Part shown: one piece after another, positions 8,567 through 32,048 of the stretch
How positions within the stretch are numbered: position 1 is the first letter of the stretch
Layout: each line of letters starts with the position of its first letter
From: Azospirillum sp. CAG:239
Lineage (GTDB): Bacteria; Pseudomonadota; Alphaproteobacteria; RF32; CAG-239
Length of the DNA: 64,000 bases
Reading direction: 5' to 3'
Assembly: GCA_000436375.1 (NCBI GenBank)
Contig: FR885511.1
Location: 62,001-126,000, forward strand
Position numbers and translations under genes: made by a program
Notes under the pieces: generated by a model
The model's database searches: none
What the model saw: only the letters and a program-made list of their open reading frames with translations
What the model was told of the DNA's origin: nothing

Positions 8567-8594
8567 TTGAAAATTAGGATTTAGCTTTTATAAT
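8567..8594 (+). promoter_or_regulatory. Promoter of structured RNA A
   Basis: TTGAAA (8567-8572), a 16-nt spacer and a perfect TATAAT (8589-8594) form a strong sigma-70-like promoter right after smr. Copy B has the same arrangement (TTGCAA, 16 nt, TATAAT), and the GCTTTTATAAT string is conserved between them. The predicted transcription start is about 8601. Confidence 0.7.
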
Positions 8595-8600
8595 CGTTTC

Positions 8601-8777
8601 TGCCAAAGGAAATGGTTAGTCCGATGGCGGAGTGTCGAAACTCCTTATAGAGAACCAATTATAACCTCCATTCGTGGAGGATGACGCGAAATAAGCCGCT
8701 TTTGCGGACGAATAAGCGTACTGTCTCTATACAGTTTCGAACTCCTCCGCTCTCATTTTGGGAGCGGTTTTGTTTTT
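8601..8777 (+). ncRNA. Structured RNA A upstream of HTH gene (novel family)
   Basis: RNA of about 175 nt with clear long-range structure. P1 is GGAGT (8629-8633) with ACTCC (8741-8745), a bulged G, then TCGAAAC (8635-8641) with GTTTCGA (8734-8740). P2 is TATAGAGA (8646-8653) with TCTCTATA (8724-8731). Inside are hairpin P3, CCTCCA-TTCG-TGGAGG (8665-8680), and arm P4, ACGC (8684-8687) with GCGT (8716-8719) enclosing CCGC-TTTT-GCGG. A terminator hairpin closes the RNA. Comparison with copy B shows at least eight paired compensatory changes in P1, P2 and P4, strong evidence that the structure is selected. The 5' strand GGAGT can also pair locally with ACTCC at 8640-8644, so two exclusive folds exist. 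Confidence 0.8.
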
Positions 8778-8786
8778 AACAAAACC
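8747..8786 (+). terminator. Intrinsic terminator / attenuator of RNA A
   Basis: CCGCTCTC (8747-8754) pairs with GGGAGCGG (8760-8767) around loop ATTTT and is followed by TTTTGTTTTT, a textbook terminator. It overlaps a second, exclusive hairpin, GGTTTTGTT (8766-8774) with AACAAAACC (8778-8786). GCGGAG at 8627-8632 could also pair with CTCCGC at 8745-8750 and disrupt it. The HTH start codon lies 26 nt past the U-tract, so read-through would be needed for the gene unless it has its own promoter. Confidence 0.75.
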
Positions 8787-8802
8787 TTTTATGGAGGAAG
8801 TT

Positions 8803-9036
8803 ATGGAAAATAAAATCAGAAAACAGAATTTGCGGCGGCTGCGTTCGGAATACGGCGAAAGTTTTCGCCGGGCTTTGGCGGAGCAGAGGCTGACGCCGGA
8901 AGAGTTCAGCGCGCAAAGCGAGATACCGCTGAATGTCGTTGAAGAGCACTTAAACGGCCAACGGCGCTTTCTTGGCGAAATAAACAATATTTGCTTTTGC
9001 CTGAACAAGCGCATGAAAATAGAACTGGTCGATTAA
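8803..9036 (+). CDS. Small XRE-like HTH protein, copy A
   Basis: A 77-residue basic protein consisting of little more than one helix-turn-helix. Residues 21-56 (FRRALAEQRLTPEEFSAQ onward, with SEIPLNVVEEHLNGQRR) read as the XRE pattern of helix, LTPEEFS, turn, recognition helix and NGQRR. The C-terminus INNICFCLNKRMKIEL matches the closing helices. It should bind DNA, although an RNA partner is possible given the structured RNA in front. The start at 8803 follows GGAGG (8793-8797). It is about 91% identical by eye (70 of 77) to copy B at 31581-31814. A bidirectional terminator follows. Targets are unknown; autoregulation with its RNA leader is an inference. Confidence 0.75.
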   Translation: MENKIRKQNLRRLRSEYGESFRRALAEQRLTPEEFSAQSEIPLNVVEEHLNGQRRFLGEINNICFCLNKRMKIELVD

Positions 9037-31580: not shown

Positions 31581-31814
31581 TCAGTCAACCAGTTCTATTT
31601 TCATGCGCTTGTTCAGGCAGAAACAAACGTTGTTTATCTCGCCCAGAAAGCGCCGTTGACCGTTTAAATGCTCTTCAACGACATGCAGCGGTATCTCGCT
31701 TTGCGCGCTGAACTCTTCCGGCGTCAGCTTCAGTTCCGCCAACGCCCGGCGGAAACTTTCACTGTATTCCGAGCGCAGCTGCCGCAAATTCTGTCTTCTG
31801 ATTTTGTTTTCCAT
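31581..31814 (-). CDS. Small XRE-like HTH protein, copy B
   Basis: Second copy of the 77-residue HTH protein (70 of 77 identical by eye to 8803-9036). The changes are mostly conservative (K7R, R12Q, G18S, Q28L, R29K, N44H, I63V). The substitution N44H lies in the putative recognition region SEIPLHVVEEHLNGQRR, so DNA specificity could differ. The start at 31814 is preceded by AAAGGAGG. Its upstream region is the structured RNA B with terminator. It is convergent with hydA; the function and any link to the hydrogenase are unknown. Confidence 0.75.
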   Translation of the reverse strand: MENKIRRQNLRQLRSEYSESFRRALAELKLTPEEFSAQSEIPLHVVEEHLNGQRRFLGEINNVCFCLNKRMKIELVD

Positions 31815-31831
31815 AACTTCCTCCTTTGCAA

Positions 31832-31871
31832 GGTTTTGTTAAAAACAAAACCGCCCTCAAAATGAGAGCGG
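31832..31871 (-). terminator. Intrinsic terminator / attenuator of RNA B
   Basis: On the minus strand CCGCTCTC (31871-31864) pairs with GAGGGCGG (31858-31851, one wobble) around loop ATTTT, followed by TTTTGTTTTT. The overlapping exclusive stem GGTTTTGTT/AACAAAACC (minus strand, spanning 31852 to 31832) is identical to copy A. Confidence 0.75.
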
Positions 31872-32014
31872 AGGAGCTTCAAACTGTACTTAGTCAGCGT
31901 GCTTATTCGTCCGCAAAAGCGGCTTATATCGCACCATCCTCCACAGATGGAGGTTAATAAGTTCTAAGTAAGGAGCTTGAAGGCTCCGCCATAAGTCTAA
32001 CCATTCTTATGACA
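31841..32014 (-). ncRNA. Structured RNA B upstream of HTH gene
   Basis: Homolog of RNA A with the same fold. P1: GGAGC (31987-31983) with GCTCC (31877-31873), a bulged C, then TTCAAGC (31981-31975) with GTTTGAA (31884-31878). P2: TACTTAG (31970-31964) with CTAAGTA (31893-31887). P3: CCTCCA and TGGAGG around TCTG. P4: GTGC (31934-31931) with GCAC (31902-31899). Relative to A, the pairs T-A to C-G, C-G to T-A and G-C to C-G in P1, three pairs in P2 and two in P4 change on both strands. The P4 interior (ATAAGCCGCTTTTGCGG and ACGAATAAGC) is invariant. The local GGAGC/GCTCC alternative (31987-31983 with 31976-31972) is also kept. Confidence 0.8.
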
Positions 32015-32020
32015 GGACTA

Positions 32021-32048
32021 ATTATAAAAGCAAAAAACTATTTTGCAA
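32021..32048 (-). promoter_or_regulatory. Promoter of structured RNA B
   Basis: On the minus strand TTGCAA, a 16-nt spacer and a perfect TATAAT (32026-32021). Same spacing and -10 context as in copy A. Predicted start near 32014. Confidence 0.65.

Follow-up and report, generated by a model that had tools for sequence, protein, structure and literature searches.

A structured RNA upstream of small HTH genes in gut alphaproteobacteria: a divergent relative of sRNA-Xcc1 with complementarity to the leader of the next gene

The 64-kb window analysed here (i.e., the whole stretch of DNA under study) carries two dispersed copies of a structured RNA, RNA A (8601-8777, plus strand) and RNA B (32014-31841, minus strand), which an earlier note had described as sharing a fold but not helix sequences; the coordinates, stem sequences, and invariant joins that it reported all agree with the sequence. 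To these features we add a 5' hairpin (P0), an upstream promoter-like pair, a terminator T-tract, and a small HTH gene downstream. On the plus strand, copy A is preceded by a putative promoter (8567-8594) with TTGAAA at 8567-8572, a 16 nt spacer, and TATAAT at 8589-8594. The RNA comprises P0 (8602-8628; 8602-8609 paired with 8621-8628), whose loop contains GGTTA; P1 (8629-8745), in which 8629-8633 pairs with 8741-8745 and 8635-8642 with 8733-8740; the variable stem P2 (8646-8731; 8646-8653 paired with 8724-8731); the hairpin P3 (8665-8680; CCTCCA/TGGAGG); and P4 (8684-8687 with 8716-8719) around P5 (8696-8699 with 8704-8707), with the conserved joins GAAATAAG and ACGAATAAG located inside this P4/P5 region (8684-8719). 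A local hairpin, GGAGT/ACTCC (8629-8644; 8629-8633 paired with 8640-8644), is a competitor of P1. The intrinsic terminator (8747-8777) consists of a stem (8747-8767) and a T-tract (8768-8777) and is followed by AACAAAACC (8778-8786), a complement of the T-tract, by the Shine-Dalgarno (SD) region GGAGGAAGTT (8793-8802), which is complementary to AACTCCTCC in the RNA with one bulge, and by a gene encoding a 77 aa HTH protein (8803-9036) with a weak Pfam match to HTH_26 (E 0.011). Copy B repeats this layout on the minus strand, with a putative promoter at 32021-32048 (TTGCAA, 32048-32043; TATAAT, 32026-32021), an RNA of the same structure at 31869-32015 (model match of 157.7 bits), an intrinsic terminator with T-tract at 31841-31871, the SD region GGAGGAAGTT at 31815-31824, and a gene at 31581-31814 for a 77 aa HTH protein, which is near kin of that of copy A and by itself matches nothing in Pfam at E ≤ 1.

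The claim that base pairs change on both strands while pairing is kept, and hence that the RNA is under selection for structure, is strongly supported by covariation on the eight full copies from the window's own genome and on 82 matches from a wider search. In the eight copies, 92.7% of cells in helices P0-P5 were paired, 21 of 43 pairs were double-changed, and none of 500 shuffles reached four of the five covariation measures; the fifth, a count of further pair types, was equalled by 379 of 500 shuffles. The 82 matches (80 distinct rows) were aligned by fitting to a model, and this alignment is biased towards the structure; here 97.2% of cells were paired and 36 of 43 pairs were double-changed (863 cells), no shuffle out of 500 attained even one of the five measures, and the slid controls had 40-46% of cells paired. 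P1 covaries, as do P3, P4, and P5 in the tests on both sets, and double changes affected seven of eight P0 pairs (82 matches) and all eight P2 pairs. The local GGAGT/ACTCC hairpin was paired in 96.8% of cells, with three of five pairs double-changed and 0-3 of 500 shuffles doing as well; GGAGU in the RNA has two exclusive partners, i.e., the 3' AACUCC (as P1) or the local ACUCC. Within the genus, the GGTTA loop of P0 could also pair with TAACC.

In the window's own genome, blastn identified nine copies, one of them cut by a contig end, and a covariance model gave 11 matches at E ≤ 1 (the weakest at E 0.02), eight of which were full and strong. A covariance-model search of related gut alphaproteobacteria, proposed in the earlier note as a check, yielded many further homologs: a first model, run on 152 genomes of the family, detected the RNA in 111 (E ≤ 0.01), and a second model, at E ≤ 0.001, detected it in 121 of the 153 order genomes and in 18 of 385 genomes of an even sample of the class, four of these 18 belonging to the window's own family. 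Copy numbers per genome are lower bounds, with up to 20 candidates scored per family or order genome and eight in the class sample; the highest is at least 20. A DNA-pattern search of named MAGs listed more than 114 stretches, of which nearly all those listed are labelled Alphaproteobacteria or proteobacterium; the hits under the labels Kiritimatiellae (L115) and Bacteroidetes (L180) are chance pattern matches. Carriage by known phages or plasmids was rejected: phage and plasmid collections gave zero blastn matches to the gut RNA, and the sole IMG/VR pattern match (L204) is a chance one that lies inside a phage structural gene and lacks a model match.

Among six relatives from the genus (G128-G133), the cassette comes and goes as a unit. 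The site of copy A is occupied in three (G129, G130, G133) and empty in two (G131, G132), and that of copy B is occupied in G129 and empty in four (G130, G131, G132, G133); G128 was undecided at both. At the A-site of G129 (L256), the 5' part and the HTH gene are kept, with the RNA 3' end and terminator replaced or decayed. REP-like palindromes (GTCATTCCCG..., CCCCGGG...) border several copies, as seen in the upstream flanks of L004, L008, and L009, and in L029 such a palindrome is inserted between terminator and HTH gene. Dispersed copies, together with sites that are occupied in one species and empty in another, are what one might see if the unit were a small selfish or mobile repeat, with an RNA structure used in DNA transposition, but we regard this as very improbable, since the units carry a promoter, a terminator, and leader complementarity, neither a target duplication nor an integrase was seen at the site junctions, and gain or loss by other routes fits equally well.

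The order within the cassette is promoter, RNA of ~150 nt, terminator, and then, usually, a small gene for a Cro/C1-type HTH protein. A -35/-10-like pair lies directly upstream in 81 of 82 matches (shuffled mean 9.4, maximum 18), and a terminator T-tract was found in 76 of 81. With four matches set aside as too close to a contig end, 69 of the other 78 have an SD-led ORF of 55-170 aa after them, and the 67 distinct proteins encoded most commonly match Pfam HTH_25 (41 proteins), HTH_31 (39), and HTH_3 (27); a profile built from them matches Cro/C1-fold structures, including C.BclI (5.9e-9), HipB, SinR, and the 434 repressor. Some downstream proteins (e.g., those of L083, L087, and L043) appear unrelated by eye. 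The nine units without an SD-led ORF are six inner units of tandem arrays (in L082, L047, L073, and L075) plus L019, L069, and L084. Tandem arrays (L082, 2957-3589; L047, 770-1650; L073; L075) consist of two to three units, each with its own promoter and terminator, upstream of a single HTH gene; units 1 and 3 of L082 are nearly alike except for three adjacent P1 base pairs, which are changed on both strands. We considered and rejected the possibility that stem sequence is a code for the HTH protein, as only six of 32 pairs with near-identical HTH proteins had both variable arms in common, and several of the 12 pairs with common arms had unrelated HTH proteins. Arm similarity and HTH similarity are correlated (Mantel r 0.22, 0/2000), which probably reflects descent.

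A promoter and terminator of its own and nine of 78 units lacking an HTH ORF would also suit a stand-alone, trans-acting sRNA with distant targets, for which the HTH gene is a passenger neighbour; sRNA-Xcc1, to which the RNA is related (see below), has reportedly been treated as a trans-acting sRNA, going by the title of Chen 2011. Given a small SD-led ORF after 69 of the 78 units, with an SD that is matched to the RNA, we consider this reading quite unlikely. Specifically, the SD of the HTH gene is GGAGTT, the complement of the RNA 3' arm AACUCC, in 38 of 52 distinct leaders; in a background of 484 longer genes, taken from the window and from 8-kb MAG stretches, six have this SD. In 67 of 69 cases, the duplex of the 3' P1 arm with the leader was stronger than the average for other windows of the locus (-14.0 vs. 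-8.9 kcal/mol), and the T-tract pairs with the stretch immediately ahead of the SD, with both sides co-changing (e.g., GTTTTGTT/AACAAAAC and GTTTCTT/AAGAAAT; 0 of 5000 shuffles, 70 leaders). For the variable stem arms, shuffled partners equalled the cognate leader in 1288 of 2000 (P2) and 1912 of 2000 (variable part of P1) trials; among RNA arms of the gut branch, only the constant AACUCC/GGAGUU matches the leader, and paralogous leaders share descent.

These pairings also bear on a riboswitch-like or protein-binding cis leader, in which the core GAAATAAG/ACGAATAAG around P5 would bind a ligand or a protein, possibly the HTH product, and thereby decide whether AACUCC pairs with GGAGU or with the SD. 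Such a leader would account for invariant loops that antisense pairing leaves unexplained, and it would be compatible with the two exclusive pairings supported for both GGAGU and AACUCC and with a terminator that sits between RNA and gene. However, every unit has its own terminator, the inner units of the tandem arrays (L082, L047, L073, L075) have no HTH ORF, and there is no fixed metabolic gene downstream, with different genes found in other families; we therefore consider a cis leader of this kind unlikely. A terminator-controlled riboswitch was rejected, as P1 and the terminator do not overlap and no antiterminator was found. When the read-through leaders of A and B were folded, SD exposure was predicted to be little altered by the RNA in cis, which makes an effect in trans more likely.

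The earlier note had recognised no described family for this RNA. This stands insofar as no Rfam family reaches its gathering score; it does not stand insofar as the RNA is distantly related to sRNA-Xcc1 (RF02221). In the window, RF02221 aligns end to end with copy A (8674-8758, plus strand) at 23.8 bits (E 0.034-0.041), below the gathering cut-off of 53 bits, and among nine loci of the own genome only copy B matches besides A (E 4.8 in 27 kb). An additional weak RF02221 match in this genome (G000:C47:24536-24619, minus strand; 32.8 bits) lies outside the nine copies. Of 14 loci searched, which the gut model had detected in other families, four bridge the gap, all below 53 bits: L218 (44.1 bits, E 1.1e-4), L221 (37.8 bits, E 0.0035), L220 (34.3 bits, E 0.024), and L213 (30.3 bits, E 0.21). 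In A, B, and these four, RF02221 is aligned over positions 1-87 and ends 9-10 nt past the gut model in all six. The helices of the RF02221 match differ from those of the gut RNA; its outer helix, which would join the P3 3' arm to the 3' end and was aligned in this way by cmscan and seen by eye, has P3 and P1 as competitors, and its register varies from group to group. We accept the kinship because of the bridging loci and the constant register; the case for homology rests on the bridging loci, because model R2 found just one of 30 RF02221 loci, at E 0.38. On these sequence comparisons we regard it as firm that the gut RNA is, by descent, a divergent branch of the sRNA-Xcc1 superfamily.

RF02221 itself was detected at E ≤ 0.001 in 51 of 299 genomes of the phylum (35 above the cut-off) and in none of 14 control genomes, and 30 of its loci were examined in detail. 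Upstream of the Rfam boundary, a hairpin of the form GAGG-loop-CCTC and a P2 arm resembling that of the gut RNA are seen in many of the 30; the Rfam model covers the 3' half of an RNA that is larger. The mapping of sRNA-Xcc1 as an 88-nt RNA, given in a passage of PMC2996969, fits this 3' half. Pairing of the 3' arm with the 5' half exceeded that of same-locus windows (-28.0 vs. -20.4; 23 of 29 better, p 4e-6). For pairing with the leader, between-locus shuffles gave 0/5000, a control that overstates the signal, as same-locus windows revealed: against these the excess is modest (20 of 30, p 0.015; in a second comparison 18 of 30, p 0.052, combined 0.03), so part of the leader signal is base composition. 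Of the 30 loci, just four leaders and six 5' halves had the cognate partner as the strictly best one, and no cognate excess was found in 14 distant loci of the class (3761/10000). Leader matches that are striking by eye occur in L228 (CACACAGAGG), L240 (GCAAACAG), L246 (CTTATCAGGAG), and L251 (GCAACAAGAC).

Ten proteins encoded downstream of RF02221 RNAs were picked by eye, nine from the 30 loci and one from L221. Eight of them are assigned by Pfam, above its cut-offs, to Bro-N (three), KilA-N, P22_AR_N, Rha (two), and SymE; of the remaining two, one is a sub-threshold Rha and one has no match. In phages Rac-SA53 and Aaphi23, RF02221 matches above the cut-off (78.1 and 86.1 bits, respectively), and the next annotated gene is ant, the leader of which repeats words from the RNA 5' half (TCGAAA and TACAAG in Rac-SA53, TCGAAA and ACAAACAG in Aaphi23); the contiguous leader duplex barely exceeds the control in these two phages. 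In L221 and L222, from larger alphaproteobacterial genomes, the RNA lies between integrase-like (by eye) and Rha-like genes. Neighbours of RF02221-type RNAs include tmRNA or tRNA genes (L225, 379-742; L240, 5-76 and 856-927; L221, 646-717), as expected of integrated phages or islands, two TwoAYGGAY RNA matches (L237, 2372-2494 and 2791-2857), and a sub-threshold c4-2 RNA (L232, 2890-2958; 34.8 bits, cut-off 41) ~1.3 kb from the RF02221 RNA.

The reading that we favour, and hold to be reasonably probable, is that each copy is a self-contained antisense cassette that acts like the C4-ant system of phages P1 and P7 and controls its small HTH gene. From the promoter, the structured RNA would be transcribed and mostly ended at the intrinsic terminator, both signals being present in the sequence, and the HTH gene, which starts ~50 nt past the terminator and has no evident promoter, would be carried on rare read-through transcripts. 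As the 3' arm (AACUCC) and U-tail are complementary to the HTH leader (AACAAAAC...GGAGUU), the terminated RNA, acting in trans or in cis, could mask the ribosome-binding site and so repress the gene. GGAGU in the 5' half would act as a target mimic that competes for the 3' arm; both pairings covary, and the RNA may switch between two or more mutually exclusive states. The earlier note proposed no function for the RNA; on the present reading, the compensatory stems would be an internal version of an antisense/target duplex, and the gut cassettes would represent a divergent branch of a superfamily that elsewhere stands before phage antirepressor genes and SymE. Judged from its complementarity, the gut RNA most likely holds down translation of the small DNA-binding gene downstream. 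Homology and gut leader complementarity are the firm parts of this account; the mechanism and a role of the stems as specificity code are what we infer from them. More tentatively still, sRNA-Xcc1, the gut RNAs, and C4 might form one class of phage-derived antisense switch, with the always-paired, fast-changing stems serving as an immunity code by which each element silences its own kind only; one gut alphaproteobacterial lineage might then have domesticated the switch, a genome of this lineage having as many as 20 or more paralogous RNA-HTH cassettes in which code and leader have become uncoupled.

With regard to novelty, the RNA is a variant of the sRNA-Xcc1 kind, and its gut branch is large and unnamed: an RNA common across a whole order of gut bacteria was missed by Rfam, whose RF02221 entry covers about half of the larger RNA. 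sRNA-Xcc1, so far discussed as a virulence sRNA, gains a testable mechanism (i.e., antisense control of the next gene), and this reading would link an RNA of plant pathogens that is poorly understood to the control of phage antirepressors, offer a possible reason for the fast change of paired stems, and provide a way to ask how phage immunity circuits turn into host regulators.

Among known systems, the type III toxin-antitoxin system ToxIN has an RNA, a terminator, and then the gene, with read-through setting the ratio. The gut cassette shares this order, but it has no RNA repeats cut by a toxin nuclease and its protein is an HTH protein rather than a nuclease. Structured RNA candidates of the human microbiome have been reported to adjoin HTH_XRE genes, 15 of them within 25 bp upstream, in passages of PMC8040213 that, the supplement list aside, name no alphaproteobacterial case, and an overlap with the gut RNA is possible. 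In open-access texts, supplements aside, we found none that joins sRNA-Xcc1 to C4-type control or describes the gut RNA. Compared with sRNA-Xcc1, the gut RNA has the same P4/P5 register, CUG..CAG, and 3' arm in its 3' half, and both stand before a small DNA-binding gene, have their own promoter, and occur in multiple, sometimes tandem, copies; according to passages in PMC12444791, the integron cassette most widespread in Xanthomonas has sRNA-Xcc1 upstream of symE, and passages in PMC12189769 describe five clustered homologues ~380 bp apart in a Xylella island. The gut RNA differs from sRNA-Xcc1 in falling below the gathering cut-off in all copies tested, in its lineage-specific 5' hairpin, in the small HTH gene downstream in place of an antirepressor or SymE, and in variable stems that do not match the leader.

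The C4 transcript of P1 and P7 has an a1/b1/a2/b2 layout with a second copy of the target upstream. C4 antisense RNA blocks translation of the antirepressor, according to passages in PMC12197685 and PMC8546580, the former placing the block on ant around the ribosome-binding site. The RF01695 model gave zero matches at any gut or C4 locus tested, and the sole c4-a1b1 match, a weak one (E 0.43), was in L220. The gut RNA is unlike C4 in having a different fold and a terminator at its end; as with C4 of P1 and P7 (RF01695; c4-a1b1, RF03163), the gut and RF02221 elements would combine a target mimic, an antisense RNA, and the ribosome-binding site of the controlled gene in one transcript, and in the gut set both the complementarity of the RNA 3' arm to the ribosome-binding site of the next gene and the second, upstream copy of the target (GGAGU) were found.
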